Origin: Prevotellaceae bacterium
GTDB lineage: Bacteria; Bacteroidota; Bacteroidia; Bacteroidales; UBA932
Assembly: GCA_031259655.1 (NCBI GenBank)
Contig: JAIRLF010000122.1
Location: 1 to 12,682, forward strand
Length of the DNA: 12,682 nt
Reading direction: 5' to 3'
Shown here one piece after another: positions 2,722 through 12,408 of this stretch; positions within the stretch are counted from its first letter, which is position 1; every line of letters begins with the position of its first letter. Position numbers and translations under genes: made by a program. The notes beneath the pieces are model-generated. The model did no database searches, was not told where the DNA came from, and saw nothing but the letters and a program-made list of their open reading frames with translations.

Positions 2722-5217
2722 TCAATCGGAAATATAAACGCGTTTCACACGTTGCGAAATGCTTGTTAAGACCTCATAAGGAATTGTTCCTATTGCATTT
2801 GCAATTTCGGAGACAGAAATAGCGCCGCCCATGATAATCACCCTGTCGCCTTCTTTTGCGTCTATACCCGTTATGTCTATCATACAGGCATCCATGCAGA
2901 TATTGCCTATAATCGGGGCAGATTTCCCGTTCACTACGAAATACCCTTTGCCGTTGCCGAGTTTACGGTTCAATCCATCGGCATATCCTATTGGCACAGT
3001 GGCTATTGTTTTCGGAGTTATCGCCACTCCATGCCTGCCGTAACCAATGGTTTCGCCTTCGTCAATCTGCTTTATCTGTACGATAGCGCTGCTAAGAGTT
3101 CCGACGTTTGCAAGATATTTGCTATTTTCCTCTGTTGCAACACCGTAAAGACCAATTCCCAATCGCGCCATATCGAATTGAGCCTCGGGAAAACGTTCGA
3201 TTCCCGCTGAATTTAAAATGTGTTTGATAAAAGAATATCCCGTTTCCTTTTCCAGTGATTTACAGAATCTTTTGAATTTTTCGATTTGCGAGACGGTAAA
3301 TTCGTCATGCCTGAGTTCGTCTGAGGCAGCGAGATGCGAAAAAACAGATGCTATTTTAACTTCCTGTCTGTTTTTAAGGATATTGCAGAGTTCGGGCAAG
3401 TCATTTTCGATAAAACCGAGCCGATGCATCCCCGTATCGACTTTTATGTGTAGCGGATAATTGTTTACCCCCATTCCGGATGCGGTTTTCAAGAACGTAA
3501 TCAAGGAGTTGAGGCTATAAATTTCCGGTTCGAGCAGATACTCAATCATGATATCGAAATTGTCGGGTTCGGTGTTCAATACGACGACAGGCATAGTAAT
3601 TCCTGCTTCCCTGAGATTTACGCCTTCGTCAGCGTATGCCACCGCCAGGTAATCAACTCTGTGATACTGCAGTAATGCCGCTATTTCCGCAGAACCGTGT
3701 CCGTATGAGGAGGCTTTTACCATAGCCATCAACTTAACTCCATCGTTCAGTTTCGACCTAAAATAGTTCAGATTATTTACAATTGCATTCATGTTGATTT
3801 CCAGAACAGTTTGATGCACTTGAATTTCCAGCAAACGCGATATTCTTTCAAAACGAAATTGCCGCCCGCCTTTCAAAAGAACAGCTTCGTTGTTGAAATT
3901 AGCTTTATTGCAGTGTAACAGAAATTTATCTGTATCGCGATAAAACTTGCAGTCCGGAATATTCGAGTTTGCGATAAAATATTCGGAATTTCGTTCCAAA
4001 GCTTCCCCGATTCCGATAAAACGAGTGATTCCTCTCGATTGCAACAATTTAGAGACTTGCAAATAAAGTTTTTTCCGGTCGGATTCGCTTTGCATAATGT
4101 CGGACAAAATCAAAGTTTTTTTCTTGTGCTGCGTCAATCCGTCCAAAAAATTCAGCGCAATTGTAAGCGAATTGAGGTCCGAATTGTACGAATCGTTGAT
4201 TATCGTGCATTTGTTGATGCCTTCTTTCAATTCCAAACGCATGGCGACCGGAGTAATATTCGCTATATTTAGCTTTAACAAATTGATGTCAAGCCCTTCC
4301 GACAAAGCAAAAGCAATACAGTGCATAGCATTTTCTATAGATGCCGAATCGGAAAACGGGATTTCAAACTCTGCTTCATTTTCGATATTATCTCTTAATA
4401 CACTGTTGTTTAATCTTATCTTGACAAGTGTCTTATTCCGGACATTTGTTTTACTCAAAACTGTCAAATTAGATTCGTCGCCATATCCCCAAGTAAAAGT
4501 GGAATACGTGTGTTTCGATTTTGAAACAGCCTGATGTATATCGCAATAGTCCGAACAATATATCAGCAATTTAGAGCGTTCGAACAATTGAAGTTTTTCT
4601 CCGATTTTCTGTTCGATATCCGTAAAATTTTCCTGATGGGCGTCGCCAATGTTGGTGAATATCCCAATATCAGGATGTAATATTTTTTCTAACCGTTTCA
4701 TTTCTCCGGGTAACGAAATGCCGGCTTCGAATATTCCAAGCTCTGAAGCGCTGTCTGTCATCAATATAGATAAAGGCGCGCCTATCTGCGAATTATAGCT
4801 TTTGGGACTGCGGCTGACTGTTTTTATGTCCCGAAAAATTTGGTATATCCATTCTTTTACGCAGGTTTTCCCGTTGCTTCCGGTTATACCCAACACAGGA
4901 AACGAAAAGGTATCTCTATAATTTGCAGCTATATCCTGAATTGCTCTCAGTGTATTTTCTACCGCAATAATATTTCCTTCGACAATATTTTCTACTCGAT
5001 AATCCTTATTCACAATGAAATTGCGAATGCCTTTCGCATAAAGTTCTTCGATATAATTGTGTCCGTCGTGCCGTTCGCCTTTTATAGCAACAAAAAGCGC
5101 TGTCTCGGATTTATCAATCCGGTTACGGCTATCAACGAAAATGTGATTTATAACCACATCATTCCCAAAATATGCACATCCGAGAATGCCGGAAATTTCG
5201 GAAAGTTTATACTGCAT
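2722..5217 (-). CDS. murF-alr: Bifunctional MurF / alanine racemase fusion
   Basis: This 831-residue cytoplasmic fusion joins two consecutive cell-wall steps. Residues 1 to about 465 are MurF, UDP-N-acetylmuramoyl-tripeptide:D-Ala-D-Ala ligase, with the ATP-binding loop GITGSNGKT at 110-118, the TNIGDAHQENF segment near 188-198, and NDSYNSD at 341-347. Residues from about 470 to the end are alanine racemase, which makes D-Ala from L-Ala. The PLP lysine K501 sits in AMVKASSYGHG, the second catalytic base Y726 in TIGYGRHG, and the CMDACM motif at 774-779. VPIGYADG and VDTGMHRLGF are further racemase signatures. Both halves look intact. This fusion is common in Bacteroidetes. It is preceded by a NIPSNAP-like lipoprotein gene 42 bases upstream and followed after 12 bases by the DUF2284 gene, so the three are probably transcribed together. 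I see no clear promoter directly upstream of its ATG. Confidence 0.96.
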   Translation of the reverse strand: MQYKLSEISGILGCAYFGNDVVINHIFVDSRNRIDKSETALFVAIKGERHDGHNYIEELYAKGIRNFIVNKDYRVENIVEGNIIAVENTLRAIQDIAANYRDTFSFPVLGITGSNGKTCVKEWIYQIFRDIKTVSRSPKSYNSQIGAPLSILMTDSASELGIFEAGISLPGEMKRLEKILHPDIGIFTNIGDAHQENFTDIEQKIGEKLQLFERSKLLIYCSDYCDIHQAVSKSKHTYSTFTWGYGDESNLTVLSKTNVRNKTLVKIRLNNSVLRDNIENEAEFEIPFSDSASIENAMHCIAFALSEGLDINLLKLNIANITPVAMRLELKEGINKCTIINDSYNSDLNSLTIALNFLDGLTQHKKKTLILSDIMQSESDRKKLYLQVSKLLQSRGITRFIGIGEALERNSEYFIANSNIPDCKFYRDTDKFLLHCNKANFNNEAVLLKGGRQFRFERISRLLEIQVHQTVLEINMNAIVNNLNYFRSKLNDGVKLMAMVKASSYGHGSAEIAALLQYHRVDYLAVAYADEGVNLREAGITMPVVVLNTEPDNFDIMIEYLLEPEIYSLNSLITFLKTASGMGVNNYPLHIKVDTGMHRLGFIENDLPELCNILKNRQEVKIASVFSHLAASDELRHDEFTVSQIEKFKRFCKSLEKETGYSFIKHILNSAGIERFPEAQFDMARLGIGLYGVATEENSKYLANVGTLSSAIVQIKQIDEGETIGYGRHGVAITPKTIATVPIGYADGLNRKLGNGKGYFVVNGKSAPIIGNICMDACMIDITGIDAKEGDRVIIMGGAISVSEIANAIGTIPYEVLTSISQRVKRVYISD

Positions 5218-6073: not shown

Positions 6074-6092
6074 AAAATATTTGGAATTCAAA
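6065..6092 (-). promoter_or_regulatory. Predicted Bacteroidetes promoter for the lipoprotein-murF-alr operon
   Basis: Read on the minus strand, TACATTTG (plus coordinates 6072 to 6065) matches the -7 consensus TAnnTTTG. A TTTG at 6092-6089 lies 16 bases upstream of it, somewhat short of the best spacing. Transcription would start near 6058, about 30 bases before the ATG at 6027. Confidence 0.55.
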
Positions 6093-6109
6093 AAAAAGTT
6101 GTATCTTTG
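6080..6109 (+). promoter_or_regulatory. Predicted Bacteroidetes promoter for the PemK/sigma-like operon
   Basis: TTTG at 6080-6083 and TATCTTTG at 6102-6109 fit the -33 and -7 consensus with an 18-base spacer. The start of transcription would fall near 6115, giving a leader of roughly 16 bases before the ATG at 6132. This decides the start of the downstream gene, since the upstream in-frame TTG at 6081 lies inside the promoter. Confidence 0.72.
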
Positions 6110-6131: not shown

Positions 6132-6536
6132 ATGAAAGATTGGAAGCAGATATTGTTAAACATTTACACGCCTGAAATCGGTTCCGTTTGGGCTGTGCAT
6201 AATGGTATATGGAATAATCTGTTCGCATCCAACAAGTATTCGAACGATTATCACCCTGCCGTAGTTGGAAAAATAAATGAAGACAAAATAAGTTGTAAAA
6301 TCATACCGGGAACAACGAAAGAATACTTGAAAGGAACCGGCGTATTCAAAGTCCGGTTCAACACATACAATCCCGATTATCAGATAACTCACTTTCTGAT
6401 AAACCTCTGGATGACCATTAGCAATAAAGAACTGTTCAAAATGAAAAGAGGTTGGGACGGCGTTGAAATGTTAAATGAAACGCAAATCAAAGGATTGAAA
6501 ATGCAAATCAAATTTTATTGGGGAATAGATGTTTAG
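6132..6536 (+). CDS. PemK/MazF-like small protein
   Basis: This 134-residue protein has no close relative that I recognise by name, but its pattern follows the PemK/MazF fold in order. GSVWAVHN (17-24) is the first strand, HPAVVGKI (41-48) corresponds to the usual RP-VVV motif, CKIIPGTTKEY (55-65) to the usual VVPITS motif, and FLINLWMTISNKEL (88-101) to the 'D..rtvdksrl' region. The C-terminal LNETQIKGLKMQI helix (114-126) fits the terminal helix of MazF toxins. The conserved arginine is replaced by H41; the threonine pair T61-T62 is kept. MazF proteins cleave RNA; whether this one does is unknown, and no classical small antitoxin gene is beside it. The start is the ATG at 6132, just after the promoter. 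The 3' end overlaps the sigma-like gene by 8 bases. Confidence 0.65.
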   Translation: MKDWKQILLNIYTPEIGSVWAVHNGIWNNLFASNKYSNDYHPAVVGKINEDKISCKIIPGTTKEYLKGTGVFKVRFNTYNPDYQITHFLINLWMTISNKELFKMKRGWDGVEMLNETQIKGLKMQIKFYWGIDV

Positions 6537-7479
6537 AGTTGATTATATACAAGAATTGATTTCGGGAAACCTTTCGAAAGAAGGTTATAATAACATACTT
6601 AACAGTATCTCGCTTTTTACGAAAAAATATAACTGGGCGAAATGTATTATTGTTCAAGCCGATAAATCAACATACTGGTCGGCTGAAGACATAAAAGAAC
6701 TGACGCATCAATTCTTTTCGTGGGCGCTCGAAAAAGGAAAATTTGTTTACCTGAATAAAATTCCGGAAAACTATCTTTCGTATTACTTTTCGCAAATATT
6801 AATGTCCTTTGTCTCAGTGCGAATCAGCGAAGAACAGCAAAAAACCGGATTGAGTTTCGAAAAATGCAAAAAATTGGTGTCGACCATCGTCACTGAGAAA
6901 TATTTCTCAAAATCAATTGATGAAACAGCATATATATACGATAAACCTTTTGACAAAGAGAATATTAAAGATGTCGGAGAAACAGATAACCTGTTAAAAA
7001 ATCTGCCACATTACAATATTCCCGAATCCACAAAGCAGTACAAACCATTGATTCTAACAGCAATACAAGACATCTTCAACATTGCGGAATCGCCTGTCGC
7101 CGTCCAAAAGCTAATTGAAACAGTCTTTGAACTGTTCGACCAAACATCGCTTCCTAACTTCGACATACAAACAGAAGAAGACGATAAAGAAGAAAATACA
7201 GAAGTCAACAGCCACAAATACAGCGTTATAATTAACAATCTGCTTGCCGGAATATCAAACGAAGACGCAAAAATCATATCGGAATACCTTTTCCAATCCC
7301 ATGGAGAAATATCATTATCCGAACTCGCAAACAAATATAATCTCCCCAAAAGTACAATACACCACAAAATAGAAACTTTCAAGAAAAAAATATTGCAAAA
7401 TTATATCCCTGTCAACGAGGAAGATGGAATAAAATTTATACAAAAATTGTCGGAAACATTGGACGAATTGGCAAAATAA
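6529..7479 (+). CDS. Divergent sigma-70-like HTH protein
   Basis: This 316-residue protein reads like a strongly diverged sigma-70 factor. Residues 5-115 are helical, and YWSAEDIKELTHQFFSWAL (49-67) resembles sigma region 2 (the 'aeD..Qe.f...w' pattern) followed by a YLSYYFSQILMSFVSVRI segment. An acidic linker (TEEDDKEENTE, 215-225) precedes residues 228-292, which resemble sigma region 4: GISNEDAKII, then the helix-turn-helix LSELANKYNLPKSTIHHKI (263-281), then a basic helix. The linker of about 110 residues between the regions is longer than in ordinary ECF sigma factors. It starts within the last codons of the PemK-like gene (8-base overlap), so translation is probably coupled. It may direct RNA polymerase, or may be a DNA-binding regulator that keeps the sigma architecture. 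The assignment rests on pattern reading only. Confidence 0.58.
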   Translation: MFRVDYIQELISGNLSKEGYNNILNSISLFTKKYNWAKCIIVQADKSTYWSAEDIKELTHQFFSWALEKGKFVYLNKIPENYLSYYFSQILMSFVSVRISEEQQKTGLSFEKCKKLVSTIVTEKYFSKSIDETAYIYDKPFDKENIKDVGETDNLLKNLPHYNIPESTKQYKPLILTAIQDIFNIAESPVAVQKLIETVFELFDQTSLPNFDIQTEEDDKEENTEVNSHKYSVIINNLLAGISNEDAKIISEYLFQSHGEISLSELANKYNLPKSTIHHKIETFKKKILQNYIPVNEEDGIKFIQKLSETLDELAK

Positions 7480-7498
7480 CGGTATATATATAATAAAA

Positions 7499-7516
7499 GG
7501 AAAAAGGAAAAAGGAA
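7499..7516 (+). repeat. AAAAAGG heptamer repeats forming the ribosome-binding region
   Basis: GG-AAAAAGG-AAAAAGG-AAG occupies the end of the 43-base gap between the sigma-like gene and the next gene, ending six bases before the ATG at 7523. The AAGGAAG part can serve as Shine-Dalgarno. Two full heptamers plus partial units are present. Confidence 0.6.
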
Positions 7517-7522
7517 GTTTTT

Positions 7523-8482
7523 ATGAATACAATAATACAATTTTTGCAAGATGATAACACCACGCAAGAGAAAATAAAAAAAATCAACGCTCTTGACAAA
7601 GACATCAAAAATATCAATCAGTTATTTAATAACCAAAATATTGCTCAAAGCAGACACGTGAAACTAAGACCGAAAATTCAACCAAACCAAATTTGGTTGG
7701 TAAAAAACGAATATCTTGATTTCCTCGGCAATACACAAAAAACAAACCACCCGTTCTTAGTATTAATAACCGGCGATATCGACGAAATCGACGAAGAAGA
7801 ATATGTAAGAACGCTTATAGTCAGCCCTTTCATAGAAATGGCAGCCAAACAGGACGAAATATGCAACGATTCCTCAATCACAGGTTTTCCCTTTCTGGTC
7901 GAAACATGGAACGAACAACCCGTATTGACCGAAATTCTTGATGAATATGTTGGCTATTATGAAGTAAAACAAGCTTTTTCAAGTTATGAGACATTGACCT
8001 CCGTACAACAGGAATTTCGAGAAGTGGAAATATCAAGAGCAAAATATCTCAACCATTCCATTATCGCATTATTGTCTTTTATGGATAACACTACAAATAA
8101 AGAATTTAGTGCAATAATATCTTTCTCCGGCACAACGCAATTCCTTTATTATCCGCAAGAAAGCCTGTATACAGATATTCATGCGATACACGAATCCGAA
8201 CACGAATATTTGTCAGTAAACAAATCGGGTGTAAAACAACAAAATAAACACATTTCGTATTATAACAAAACCTTACCATTTGATATATATATCGAGAAAA
8301 ATGTGGATGGTTTCGTTTTAACGGTTTTCACTACCGACAATGTTGAACTGTTTGACTCAAAAAATGTGAAAATAAACGGTTTATCACGCCATGAACAAAT
8401 AGTTTTTTCGCCATTAACAAAAGGATTATACACCATAAACTCAAAACAAATTCAAAAACCCGTCACAATAAGATTAAAATAA
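7523..8482 (+). CDS. Protein with PemK-like domain and C-terminal beta domain
   Basis: This 319-residue protein is unfamiliar as a whole. Residues 1-45 are polar and helical. Residues 53 to about 185 look like a second PemK-type domain: QPNQIWLVKNEY (53-64), HPFLVLITGD (76-85), RTLIVSPFIE (96-105), FPFLVETWN (122-130), then VGYYEV and a helix. The HP pair aligns with H41-P42 of the first gene of this operon, suggesting related domains, but the threonine usual after the VxP strand is replaced (SPFIE), so RNase activity is doubtful. Residues 195-319 are beta-rich, ending in a repeat-like segment (PFDIYIEKNVDGFVLTVFT and a terminal KGLYTINSK) that suggests a small beta-sandwich. There is no signal peptide. 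It follows the sigma-like gene after 43 bases and is the last gene before the atp promoter. Possible roles are partner, inhibitor or sensor for the other two proteins; all are inference. Confidence 0.62.
   Translation: MNTIIQFLQDDNTTQEKIKKINALDKDIKNINQLFNNQNIAQSRHVKLRPKIQPNQIWLVKNEYLDFLGNTQKTNHPFLVLITGDIDEIDEEEYVRTLIVSPFIEMAAKQDEICNDSSITGFPFLVETWNEQPVLTEILDEYVGYYEVKQAFSSYETLTSVQQEFREVEISRAKYLNHSIIALLSFMDNTTNKEFSAIISFSGTTQFLYYPQESLYTDIHAIHESEHEYLSVNKSGVKQQNKHISYYNKTLPFDIYIEKNVDGFVLTVFTTDNVELFDSKNVKINGLSRHEQIVFSPLTKGLYTINSKQIQKPVTIRLK
7685..7698. repeat. 14-bp perfect palindrome inside a gene
   Basis: AACCAAATTTGGTT is a perfect palindrome within the codons for the first strand of the PemK-like domain of the third operon gene. 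It may be a chance result of codon choice or an internal regulator site. Confidence 0.4.
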
Positions 8483-8496
8483 TCCGGAATAAATAT

Positions 8497-8504
8497 TACC
8501 TTTG
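8497..8504 (+). promoter_or_regulatory. Predicted -7 promoter element for the atp-containing operon
   Basis: TACCTTTG matches the Bacteroidetes -7 consensus. No clear TTTG -33 element lies at the right distance upstream; the expected place is an AT-rich stretch at the end of the preceding gene. Transcription would start near 8510, which makes the in-frame TTG at 8502 an unlikely start and favours the ATG at 8520. Confidence 0.5.
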
Positions 8505-8519
8505 CAGGCTGATATTTTG

Positions 8520-8909
8520 ATGATGTTAAAGTTTAGGACATATCTTTTTGAACTGATATTGTGGATGTTGTTACCATCAGTTAGCGGATGGATTATATTT
8601 GAGATTTTCACAAAATACCGTTTCGATTCATATCCGGTGATACCTGCCGGCATGATTGTTTTAGGCATAATTTTCTTTTTCATATTGAAAAAAATCCCTG
8701 ACGTATCCGAAAATAACAGAATATTACTGTTTTACTTTAATGTTGTTATAAAAATGGCGCTGTCGTTAGCGTTAATTTTGTTCGTGGTACTGAACGACAG
8801 AACGAACGCTTTGTATTTTATAATCACATTCTTTGTGTTTTACGTTTTTTTAATGATATTTGAAATACGATGTTTCAACAAAATAATAAAATTAGTGTCG
8901 GGAAAGTAA
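8520..8909 (+). CDS. AtpI-like small membrane protein upstream of atpB
   Basis: This protein of about 129 residues has four hydrophobic segments. Measured from the ATG at 8520 they fall roughly at residues 9-27, 39-57, 66-87 and 92-112. It has no other recognisable motif. In Bacteroidetes a poorly conserved protein of this size and topology usually precedes atpB and is thought to correspond to ATP synthase protein I, which helps assembly of the membrane rotor ring or ion supply. The assignment rests on topology and position, 8 bases before atpB. Two adjacent ATG codons (8520 and 8523) are possible starts; both follow a predicted promoter with a very short leader. Confidence that it is a real gene is high; the AtpI role is less sure. 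Confidence 0.68.
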   Translation: MMLKFRTYLFELILWMLLPSVSGWIIFEIFTKYRFDSYPVIPAGMIVLGIIFFFILKKIPDVSENNRILLFYFNVVIKMALSLALILFVVLNDRTNALYFIITFFVFYVFLMIFEIRCFNKIIKLVSGK

Positions 8910-8917
8910 AAATATAG

Positions 8918-9973
8918 ATGAAAAAAATTGCAACCATATTATTATTAATGATTTGTTCTGTGGCTCTCAAAGCAGAGAATAGCGAATCAGCTCAGGGACA
9001 AGACAATGGCTCTTTTCGTATAAAAGATTTCATATTCGGTCACATAGCCAACGATTACGAATTTCATATAACCGATATAGGCAAAGATCAAATATCTGTA
9101 CCTTTGCCTGTTATCGTGCGTAACAAAAACGGTCGATGGTTCTTTTTCATGTCGTCGAAATTTCATCATAAACACGAGAGTTACAATGGATTTCATATAG
9201 CAAGCGAAGGAAAATATTCGGGTCAAATAGTCGAAACGCTTTCCGACGGTTCGGAATATCGTCCTGTTGATTTGTCTATTACCAAAAATGTGTTTACTAT
9301 TTTACTGACAGTTACGTTGTTGTCTATCCTATTCATATCCATACGAAAAAGATACACAAGCGACCCGTTACGGAAACCAAAAGGATTTCAGGCGTTATTA
9401 GAGCCTGTGATACTGTTTGTAACCGAAGATATCGCAAAAGCGGCAATAGGCAAGGGATATGAAAAATACACAAGTTTCTTGCTGACAATGTTTTTCCTTA
9501 TCTTGACACTCAATTTTACGGGATTGATTCCGATTTTTCCTTTCGGGGCAAACGTCACGGGAAATATCAATGTCACAGCAGCTTTGGCTTTGTGTACGTT
9601 CACAGTAACAATGATAAGCACAACAAAAGCATACTGGCATCACAAATTGTGGACTCCCGGAGTTCCTTTACTGTTGAAAGCGCCCATGCCTTTGATGCCG
9701 ATGGTGGAAATAATTTCGATTTTTACGGGACCGTTAGCATTGGTTATTCGTCTGTTTGCAAATATTCTTTCGGGACACATGGTTGTCACAGTGCTTTTAG
9801 GGTTGATTTTTGTGTTCAGTTCGCTCGGGGCGCTGATTGACAGCTTTATTTCGGTGATTGCCATTGTATTCTCGATATTTATGATGATATTGGACGTGTT
9901 GGTATCATTCATACAGGCATACGTATTCACTTTGCTTTCAGCTCTATATTTCGCTTCGGCTAAAGAGGGTTAA
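8918..9973 (+). CDS. atpB: F0F1 ATP synthase subunit a
   Basis: This 351-residue protein is subunit a of the membrane sector of ATP synthase, forming the proton (or sodium) half-channels against the c-ring. It has an N-terminal signal peptide (about residues 1-19, ending VALKA) and a soluble extension with FIFGHIANDYEFHITD, both typical of the long Bacteroidetes form. The membrane core follows from about residue 125. The essential arginine is R278 in PLALVIRLFANILSGH, and the last helix has FIQAYVFTLLSALYF. The protein looks complete. It follows the AtpI-like gene by 8 bases. Unusually, the next gene is an MFS transporter 16 bases later rather than atpE, so the rest of the F-type ATPase must be encoded elsewhere if it exists. 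Confidence 0.95.
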   Translation: MKKIATILLLMICSVALKAENSESAQGQDNGSFRIKDFIFGHIANDYEFHITDIGKDQISVPLPVIVRNKNGRWFFFMSSKFHHKHESYNGFHIASEGKYSGQIVETLSDGSEYRPVDLSITKNVFTILLTVTLLSILFISIRKRYTSDPLRKPKGFQALLEPVILFVTEDIAKAAIGKGYEKYTSFLLTMFFLILTLNFTGLIPIFPFGANVTGNINVTAALALCTFTVTMISTTKAYWHHKLWTPGVPLLLKAPMPLMPMVEIISIFTGPLALVIRLFANILSGHMVVTVLLGLIFVFSSLGALIDSFISVIAIVFSIFMMILDVLVSFIQAYVFTLLSALYFASAKEG

Positions 9974-9989
9974 AATTAAAAAAAATCGG

Positions 9990-11168
9990 ATGACGAATAA
10001 AAATTCTCTTTGGACGGAAGATTTTATAAAGTCGTGTTTGGCAAATTTTCTCATGTCGTTTGCCTTTTACCTGCTCATGTCCACTTTGCCGATATATTTA
10101 GTAAAAGACTTAAATATAAAACATTCCGAAGTAGGAATCGTTTTATCGTCCTACACTTTGGCGATGTTGTTTGCAAGGTCGCTTTCTGGATATTTGGTCG
10201 ATACTCTGTCACGGAAATATTTGTTTATGTTTTCGTTAGTGTTTTTTTCGATATTGTTTGGCGGATATATTCCGGCGACGACCATCACAATGTTCATGAT
10301 ATTGCGTTTTTTTCACGGCGCCGCCTGGGGCGTTACGACCGTTTCGGGCAATACCATCGCAATAGATATTATCCCTTCGTCGCGAAGAGCCGAAGGGATA
10401 GGATTTTATGGATTGAGTATGAACCTCTCCATGGCTATCGCGCCTTGGGCAGGTTTGTTGATATACAATAGCTTAGGATATATATCCTTAGTTGTTTTTT
10501 GTGTATTTGTGAGCGCAGTCGCCTCATTAATAGTTTGGTCGATGAAAATCAAACCGCGCAAACCGAACAGGGAGACCGCGCCTAAACTGTCGCTCGACAG
10601 ATTTATTCTTGTGAAAGCATTGCCTGTCAGCGTGAATCTCATATTTTGCGCAATCGCATACGGCACTTTGATATCCTACGGAGTTTTATATGGCGAAGAA
10701 ATCGGGATAAACAATCCCGGCGTGATGTTTCTGTTTATGGCTTTGGGACTTGGTTTGTCGCGTATTTTTTCGGGAAAATTAGTCGACAAGGGAAATGTTC
10801 ACCCTGTCTCGGTGATAGCGACTGTTATACTTGCTGTTTCGTTTGCGATATTTGCTTTGGTTCATAATGTATATGTCTATTCCATAGCATCTTTTATGAT
10901 AGGATTAGGTTTTGGAAGCATCGCTCCTGCATTCCAGACGATGTTTGTAAATATGGGAACAAACAATCAGCGCGGAACGGCTAACTCTACATATCTCACC
11001 TCTTTCGATATCGGAATCGGAGCGGGTATGCTTATCGGCGGTTATGTCTCGGCACAAGCTAACATGGCTATGGTTTATGTTGTAAGCGCCTCGTTATGCG
11101 CGATTGCAGCAGTGTATAACTTCGTGATAACTATACCTGTGTACGATAAATTAAAAATTACGAAATAA
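9990..11168 (+). CDS. MFS transporter
   Basis: This 392-residue inner-membrane protein shows about 12 hydrophobic segments, the usual length and topology of the major facilitator superfamily. Motif A between segments 2 and 3 is visible as GYLVDTLSRK (67-76), with a degenerate repeat, GKLVDKG, in the second half. RFFHGAAWGVTTVSGNTIAI and the following SSRRAEGIGFYG stretch belong to the segment 4-5 region of the drug/metabolite-type MFS families. The likely role is proton-coupled efflux or uptake of a small molecule; the substrate cannot be read from the sequence. It lies 16 bases after atpB and 10 bases before the HD-domain gene, so it is probably part of the same transcript. Confidence 0.9.
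   Translation: MTNKNSLWTEDFIKSCLANFLMSFAFYLLMSTLPIYLVKDLNIKHSEVGIVLSSYTLAMLFARSLSGYLVDTLSRKYLFMFSLVFFSILFGGYIPATTITMFMILRFFHGAAWGVTTVSGNTIAIDIIPSSRRAEGIGFYGLSMNLSMAIAPWAGLLIYNSLGYISLVVFCVFVSAVASLIVWSMKIKPRKPNRETAPKLSLDRFILVKALPVSVNLIFCAIAYGTLISYGVLYGEEIGINNPGVMFLFMALGLGLSRIFSGKLVDKGNVHPVSVIATVILAVSFAIFALVHNVYVYSIASFMIGLGFGSIAPAFQTMFVNMGTNNQRGTANSTYLTSFDIGIGAGMLIGGYVSAQANMAMVYVVSASLCAIAAVYNFVITIPVYDKLKITK
10370..10400 (+). repeat. 10-bp perfect inverted repeat inside the MFS gene
   Basis: TATCCCTTCG (10370-10379) and CGAAGGGATA (10391-10400) are perfect inverse complements around an 11-base loop. The loop also allows a competing hairpin, CTTCG-TCG-CGAAG (10375-10387). It lies in codons for the conserved IIPSSRRAEGIG segment, so coding constraint may account for part of it. 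Confidence 0.6.
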
Positions 11169-11178
11169 AAATTGCAAC

Positions 11179-12408
11179 ATGAATAAGAAATATAAGGTGA
11201 AAATTATCAACGACCCTGTGCATGGATTTATAACGGTTTCGTCGCCTTTGATTTATTCAATTCTTGAACATCCTTATTTCCAACGTTTACGCAGCATAAA
11301 ACAACTCGGATTGACATATCTTGTCTATCCCGGAGCTTGTCACAACAGGTTTCAACATGCGCTCGGAGCAATGCACCTTATGGGACGCGCTCTCAATACG
11401 TTGAAAGACAAAGGTCACGAAATCACACATCAGGAAATGGAAATGGCTTTGGCAACCATACTTCTGCACGACATCGGTCACGGACCTTTCAGTCATACCC
11501 TCGAATCAAGCATCGTCGAAGGTATATCGCACGAAACAATCTCAATGATTTTTCTTGAACAACTCAGCAAAGAATTCAACGGAAAACTTGATTTGGCAAT
11601 AGAAATTTTCTCGAAAAGATACAAAAAACGTTTTTTCAACGAGTTAGTAAGCGGACAGTTGGATGTTGACAGGTTGGACTATTTGAGACGCGACAGTTTT
11701 TTTTCGGGAGTTGTCGAAGGGATGATTGGCATCGAACGCATTATTAGCATGTTGGATGTGCATGACGACGAGCTTGTAATAGAGGCAAAAGGTATTTATT
11801 CTATCGAAAAGTTTCTGATTTCCCGACGATTGATGTATTGGCAGGTTTATCTGCACAAGACTGTTTTGTCTGCCGAAATTGTATTGATGCAAATCTTTCG
11901 ACGGGCAAAATATCTCGCGCGTAATGGTGAAAAATTATTTGCTTCGCCCGCGCTCTCATTTTTTCTCTATAATTCGGTGGACGACAAAGTTTTTGTTCCG
12001 GGAAATGCGGATGTTCTCAACCATTTTGCTTCGTTATGCGACGGCGACGTCGAAAGCGCTGCCATGGTCTGGATGTCTCATACCGACAAAATTCTCTCCG
12101 AATTATGTAAAATGCTGATGTATCGCATTCTGCCGCGGACAGAGTTAAGTGCGACGCCTTTTCCCGAAGACAAAATCGAAGATAAACGACGCGCTACCAA
12201 ACAGCGATTCGGATTGAGCGACAAAGATATCGACTATTTTGTGATTTCCGGAACAGTGAGCAATACGGCATACTCTCCTAACAAACAATCAATTCGTATT
12301 AAATATAACGACGGACGGCTTATGGATATTTTCGAAGCCTCCGACATGCTAAAGCATTCCAATATCGATGAAGAAGTACACAAATACATGCTTGTATATC
12401 CTAAGTAA
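11179..12408 (+). CDS. HD-domain phosphohydrolase (dNTPase/SAMHD1-like)
   Basis: This 409-residue cytoplasmic protein belongs to the HD superfamily group COG1078, related to dGTP triphosphohydrolases and SAMHD1. The metal-binding residues appear in order: H60 in NRFQHALGAMHL, H97-D98 in LLHDIGHGPFSH, and an aspartate in QLDVDRLDYLRRD (D162 or D164). The opening KIINDPVHGFITV and RLRSIKQLGLTYLVYPGA are also typical of the family, and the length is normal. Likely activity is hydrolysis of dNTPs to deoxynucleosides and triphosphate, though for most bacterial members the substrate is untested. The start ATG at 11179 follows the MFS stop by 10 bases. Its last 41 bases overlap the start of the next gene. 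Confidence 0.9.
   Translation: MNKKYKVKIINDPVHGFITVSSPLIYSILEHPYFQRLRSIKQLGLTYLVYPGACHNRFQHALGAMHLMGRALNTLKDKGHEITHQEMEMALATILLHDIGHGPFSHTLESSIVEGISHETISMIFLEQLSKEFNGKLDLAIEIFSKRYKKRFFNELVSGQLDVDRLDYLRRDSFFSGVVEGMIGIERIISMLDVHDDELVIEAKGIYSIEKFLISRRLMYWQVYLHKTVLSAEIVLMQIFRRAKYLARNGEKLFASPALSFFLYNSVDDKVFVPGNADVLNHFASLCDGDVESAAMVWMSHTDKILSELCKMLMYRILPRTELSATPFPEDKIEDKRRATKQRFGLSDKDIDYFVISGTVSNTAYSPNKQSIRIKYNDGRLMDIFEASDMLKHSNIDEEVHKYMLVYPK

Follow-up and report, generated by a model that had tools for sequence, protein, structure and literature searches.

What would two toxin-like proteins and a sigma-like transcription factor do together in one compact unit? The question is raised by genes A, B and C, which lie in this order on a 12,682-nucleotide stretch of Prevotellaceae DNA (contig JAIRLF010000122.1 of assembly GCA_031259655.1, hereafter the window). 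A sequence-only reading had suggested that the unit may connect a dedicated transcription switch either with cleavage of RNA or with a binding domain derived from MazF. The binding-domain and switch half of this suggestion is supported, because C has a MazF fold in its predicted model, B resembles sigma region 4 and the gene order is kept beside different neighbours; cleavage, by contrast, is disfavoured for C, by an alignment of weak register. On balance we lean towards reading A-B-C as a regulatory switch, independent of clustered regularly interspaced short palindromic repeats (CRISPR), in which a MazF-fold anti-sigma factor would control a sigma factor, here without adjacent protease partners.

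The three open reading frames are all present and intact (Table 1), and the 8-base overlap of A and B is exact and recurs in all six loci in which both genes are intact. The promoter proposed ahead of A corresponds to a match to what we take to be the Bacteroidetes consensus. An identical motif stands at equal distance upstream of A in a separate record, L002, which is 88% identical to the window over 3.1 kb, but the full motif was not found in the other five regions examined (L003, L004, L016, L090 and L091). The chance of finding TAnnTTTG alone within the last 60 bases is about 0.03-0.04, as estimated by shuffling that region.

Table 1. Positions of the genes and features of the A-B-C unit within the window.
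Feature	Position	Strand	Description and basis
Promoter match	6080..6109	+	Bacteroidetes-type, TTTG-N18-TATCTTTG, upstream of A; motif match
Gene A	6132..6536	+	134 aa; PemK/MazF-like by motif
A stop/B start overlap	6529..6536	+	8 bases, ATGTTTAG; read directly
Gene B	6529..7479	+	316 aa; sigma-like transcription factor
B residues 1-125	6529..6903	+	Helical, possible equivalent of sigma region 2; predicted model, unsupported by profile comparison
B residues 228-295	7210..7413	+	Sigma region-4-like helix-turn-helix; profile comparison
Gene C	7523..8482	+	319 aa; MazF fold (predicted model) and a beta domain at the C-terminus; putative anti-sigma factor
C residues 49-157	7667..7993	+	MazF/CcdB-fold barrel; predicted structure
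C residues 215-239	8165..8239	+	Low-confidence linker, pLDDT under 50; putative cleavage region
C residues 240-319	8240..8479	+	C-terminal beta domain ending IRLK; predicted model

The PemK-like fold claimed for protein C is found in the predicted structure, in which residues 49-157 form an SH3-like barrel of the MazF/CcdB type. The linker separates an N-terminal part of 24.9 kDa from a C-terminal domain of 9.3 kDa; its low predicted local distance difference test (pLDDT) score is shared by residues 1-23 and 37-46. The IRLK ending is conserved among homologues, and several homologues end ahead of the beta domain. Genome G118 has a second copy of C (L010:3711-4331, reverse strand) with 206 residues and no beta domain; it is preceded, at the contig edge, by what appears by eye to be the end of a B gene, and beside it is an HD-domain-like gene (L010:2246-3484) that looks similar to the window's own HD gene when compared by eye. 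Among the best 25 of the 37 Pfam families listed for C homologues there is no PemK; Por_Secre_tail is found in 4 of 50 homologues (E 0.02), with no signal peptide apparent by eye. The only matches of C in a PDB sequence search were to BST2 and were taken as noise. When C was sought in viral contigs, 51 stretches fitted a pattern and none was confirmed; searches of plasmids and of phages gave no match, and PHROGs returned only weak rows, mostly of unknown function.

The catalytic residues expected of a MazF RNase are not evident in C. At the place aligned with what we take to be the catalytic Arg of MazF, 44 of 49 sequences have His, and the region presumed to hold the Thr (101-105) has no conserved Thr, both positions depending on a weak hhalign register. 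Arg96 is nearly invariant and lies away from the aligned catalytic position, so that C may have another active site.

Protein A is the smaller of the two MazF-like candidates. It carries HP at residues 41-42, where MazF has RP, and PGT at 59-61, and H41, P42, P59, G60 and T61 are present in 24 of 24 sequences. Aligned over its full length with PemK proteins, A is collinear with them, H41-P42 falling on Arg-Pro and PGT on the Thr region of MazF. The PemK fold claimed for A thus has a motif-compatible alignment, but the hhalign score is not significant (shuffles as good in 0/40 local, 9/40 global and, with more homologues, 2/60 comparisons), which leaves the fold likely from sequence but not established. 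A itself matches no Pfam family, PemK is not among the four families matched by its homologues, and a PDB sequence search gave no match. The kinship of A and C that shared strand patterns had implied is not detectable by profile: shuffles score as well in 1/40 local comparisons (in the wrong register), 34/40 global ones and 5/60 in a second comparison.

These two proteins could belong to a derived toxin-antitoxin system, in which A (or C) would cleave RNA as an active enzyme of the MazF type whose Arg is replaced by His, B would be both the DNA-binding antitoxin and an autorepressor, and C an accessory protein. Several observations speak for such a system and so count against the switch: the invariant H41 and T61 of A, in places compatible with the Arg and Thr of MazF; the overlap of A and B; the AbiEii and DUF6088 genes (AbiEi_4 below cut-off) among the neighbours of L004/L009; and Arg96 of C. 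However, C shows neither Arg nor a conserved Thr at the places aligned in the weak register, B, with 316 residues and similarity to sigma region 4, is unlike MazE, and the full-length operons described below add MoxR-vWA machinery. A derived toxin-antitoxin module is judged unlikely.

The helix-turn-helix (HTH) proposed for B is found, and of the sigma architecture claimed for it one half stands. Region 4 is supported by profile comparison (hhalign E 4.8e-6, 0/40 shuffles as good), although B itself falls below the Pfam and NCBIfam cut-offs for this region. Region 2 is undetected by sequence (5/40 shuffles as good by profile) and is suggested by the predicted model alone; Sigma70_r2 is not among the 13 Pfam families matched by B, nor among the best 25 of the 64 listed for 33 B members. 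The best structural neighbours of the model are mostly sigma factors, some of which align over both domains. In the reading favoured here B would be a divergent sigma factor resembling the extracytoplasmic function (ECF) type. In PADLOC, A and C had no match and B had nothing beyond weak HTH rows, the best being Csa3 at E 0.001; the rows that B gave in a PDB sequence search (best E 0.011; keratin, generic HTH regulators and others) were taken as noise.

A distant locus, L015, offers a clearer sigma relative. There a sigma gene (B') is followed by a C-like gene (C') and a Lon-like gene. B' exceeds the Pfam cut-off for Sigma70_r4 (27.2 vs 24.1 bits), matches SigB/F/G at 8e-8, under the cut-off of that model, and has a short C-terminal motif in common with B (E 0.001 in a single comparison; 43 columns, 12 gaps). 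The similarity of C' to C covers the barrel (profile E 3.9e-7; single-comparison E 8e-5), and C' had no match in a PDB sequence search. About 7 kb from this locus (L015:3054-5855) lie a second sigma-like gene, with Sigma70_r2 just under cut-off, a following gene that by eye looks TPR-like, and a gene for a C14 caspase.

B might nevertheless be an ordinary HTH regulator, with A-B-C as the regulatory head of a longer operon (A-G) and A and C sensing a ligand or binding nucleic acid. Generic HTH families match more B members than does Sigma70_r4, region 2 escapes detection by sequence, and WYL regulators are found near L016 and L091, all of which weakens the case for a sigma switch. Set against this are the sigma factors that dominate the structural neighbours of B, the sigma region 4 of B' and the persistence of the triplet without adjacent D-G, and we regard an ordinary regulator as improbable.

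The three-gene unit stands alone in the window, as claimed; elsewhere it forms the 5' part of a seven-gene operon that had been overlooked. The order A-B-C-D-E-F-G is the same in three genomes (L009, L016 and L090), the first two belonging to one genus. D is a P-loop ATPase of about 1180 aa that also has a VDE motif, E, with about 510 aa, is perhaps coiled, by eye, F is a MoxR-type AAA+ protein (PF07728, 1.4e-12 for L009) and G combines HExxH with a vWA domain (PF13519, 7.9e-9 for L009). The P-loop, HExxH and DxSGS motifs are present in all three operons, whereas MoxR and vWA were recognised by Pfam in L009 and by homology in L016 and L090. In a further locus, L003, A-B-C is followed by the beginning of D, where the contig stops. 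PADLOC returned only weak rows for D-G. The operons neighbour AbiEii, DUF6088, Vsr, WYL, Schlafen-AlbA and AAA_21 genes, a setting resembling a defence island, and the longer operon is probably defence-related. Locus L091 has no B: the A gene there overlaps a C-like gene, and nearby are genes for a WYL protein, two caspases and a TPR-CHAT protein. The C-like protein of this locus (L091:8804-9811) has a hydrophobic, possibly membrane-spanning segment, which would put a MazF-like barrel at the membrane, and by eye a TPR-like C-terminus; a PDB sequence search gave it one weak row, a TPR protein.

The absence of D behind C in the window is not the fault of one assembly, because L002 continues for about 100 bases past C and these match the start of the same atpI-like gene. 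The six flanking genes scanned, those nearest the triplet, include neither MoxR, vWA nor a third component. A search limited to D, among the four genes D-G, found no copy in the rest of the genome of the window (77.7% complete) or in G118. Since both copies share the bases after C, their 12% divergence arose without D-G directly behind it. Over this distance the ratio of nonsynonymous to synonymous substitution rates (dN/dS, NG86) is 0.15 for A, 0.14 for B and 0.19 for C, compared with 0.10 for the neighbouring NIPSNAP gene (194 codons); by YN00 it is 0.19 for A and 0.23 for B. Such low ratios between copies that lack D-G imply that the triplet is maintained without D-G directly behind C.

The same data bear on whether the triplet of the window is only what is left of a decaying seven-gene operon and no longer functions by itself. 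The missing D-G, the shortened second C of G118 and the absence of C from all 12 congeners searched point that way, and to that extent away from a working switch. The dN/dS of 0.14-0.19, however, and the reading frames, overlap and promoter motif that are intact in both the window and L002, speak against a remnant, and we think decay very improbable.

In the arrangement we favour, the switch, C, with a MazF fold but probably without the usual catalytic pair of MazF, would bind B as an anti-sigma factor, by analogy with CalpT and CalpS (below). A, translationally coupled to B, would probably join the resting complex as a second, smaller MazF-like protein. In full-length loci, D, E, F and G would form a machine that detects a threat and then remodels or cleaves C, the disordered linker being the probable target; B would then be freed to transcribe its targets. 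With no such machine beside the triplet, the switch of the window would be under the control of a different protease or of a machine elsewhere.

Searches returned 137 homologues of C (120 listed), 20 of A and 108 of B, counts that, like those of rarity below, include the query or the genome of the query or centre; the named records are mostly hypothetical. C is rare, being found in 1 of 118 relatives, 2 of 395 genomes of the phylum, 2 of 299 of the L009 genus and 1 of 394 of the L003 family; within the order it occurs in 4 of 393, among them a fragment interrupted by two stops. C' occurs in 1 of 79 genomes of its family. The A-B-C order is kept beside different neighbours in different genomes, and the three proteins diverge in step (Mantel r 0.71 for A-B, 0.92 for B-C and 0.70 for A-C; 14 loci, 0/5000 permutations each). 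Six of these triplets were read directly (window, L002, L003, L009 read as L004, L016 and L090) and eight were grouped by a linkage proxy, equal length of the contigs that carry the hits, two of them backed by neighbouring locus tags of A, B and C in two records.

In the window the triplet is flanked on one side by a NIPSNAP gene on the opposite strand and on the other by a small membrane-like gene, atpI-like by position, directly followed by atpB, the gene for the ATP synthase a subunit; the six genes scanned are NIPSNAP, MurF-Alr, an unassigned small protein, the ATP synthase a subunit, MFS and HD. The upstream genes are unmatched in all five congeners that have the atpI-atpB pair, and the genomic spot of the triplet is therefore variable. 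Lower GC content had been noted as a sign of transfer. Measured in 500-bp windows it is confirmed, with values of 0.30-0.37 between about 6000 and 8500. As a sign of transfer it is weak, because the next 750 bases (the atpI-like gene and start of atpB) are equally low (0.32-0.35). The atpI-like gene and atpB are followed directly by the MFS gene, with no other ATP synthase genes between (8502-9973 and 9990-11168), an order repeated in the congener L085. Further away are the HD gene (11179-12408, 2.7 kb downstream of C), a MurF-like ligase fused to alanine racemase (2722-5217, reverse strand) and, at 3-2039, a Radical-SAM-like gene (by eye) with a second gene immediately behind, a putative DNA-repair pair. 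Rfam gave no match in the window at the gathering threshold.

Sigma-like and MazF-fold genes recur as partners, and Lon-like, CHAT/caspase or HExxH-vWA/MoxR genes are present in one version of the locus or another; the simplest common reading is a releasable sigma/anti-sigma switch. More tentatively, and with less confidence than we place in the switch itself, MazF-fold proteins may have taken on an anti-sigma role far outside CRISPR, and the machines that release the sigma factor may be exchangeable (Lon-like, TPR-CHAT/caspase, or MoxR with HExxH-vWA), the window holding a bare switch kept under selection without a machine beside it. If so, the CalpT/CalpS principle, in which a toxin-shaped protein keeps a sigma factor silent until proteolysis releases it, would be a general module rather than a CRISPR peculiarity, and one that different sensing machines can drive. 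The evolution of MazF would then be connected with sigma-factor control and with MoxR-vWA conflict systems, and families mostly annotated as hypothetical would gain a function open to direct testing.

A sigma/MazF-fold pair outside CRISPR, or tied to MoxR-vWA, is undescribed in the PMC literature searched, a scope that leaves out most subscription papers (further sources: PMC8195603, PMC12839542, PMC10028731, PMC11417357, PMC12751052, PMC11229360). The full A-G operons resemble MoxR-vWA ternary systems in pairing a MoxR AAA+ protein with a vWA protein, here G, to which a peptidase-like HExxH motif also belongs (2020, PMC7159879). They differ in that this motif lies N-terminal to the vWA domain and in that the NTPase D has an intact P-loop motif, the iSTAND of those systems being inactive; no VMAP or iSTAND was identified in L009, L016 or L090. 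PemK, MazF and sigma factor have zero occurrences in that text. The MazF/PemK and CcdB toxins share the predicted fold of C residues 49-157, whereas in C the Arg and Thr are unseen at the aligned positions (in a weak register) and the barrel is fused to helices and a beta domain, in an operon with a sigma-like gene.

In type III-E systems the inhibitor of CASP-sigma, Csx30, is a substrate that the TPR-CHAT protein Csx29 cuts; the likeness is a protease-releasable sigma inhibitor in a defence locus, as proposed here, and L091 likewise has a TPR-CHAT gene near its A and C-like genes. The sequence-only reading knew of no described system with this composition, yet the sigma/MazF-type pairing has a precedent in CalpS/CalpT. 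CalpT is reportedly a MazF homologue, which a reference title, 'SAVED by a toxin', fits. The triplet differs from CalpL/T/S in its additional small MazF-like A, in having no SAVED-Lon among the flanking genes scanned, and in the MoxR, HExxH-vWA and P-loop ATPase that its full operons carry instead; close-spaced direct repeats of at least 20 bases are absent from the window, and cas genes elsewhere in the genome were not searched. CalpL/T/S is nonetheless the closest precedent. In this type III CRISPR system the anti-sigma factor CalpT (33 kDa) holds the ECF sigma factor CalpS until the Lon protease CalpL cuts CalpT from 33 to 23 kDa and frees CalpS. Here too a sigma-like factor and its proposed anti-sigma partner are encoded together, B with its region 4 beside C with its predicted MazF fold; a Lon-like gene adjoins the distant B'-C' pair; and the two parts into which a cut in the linker would divide C resemble the outcome of the CalpT cut in size.
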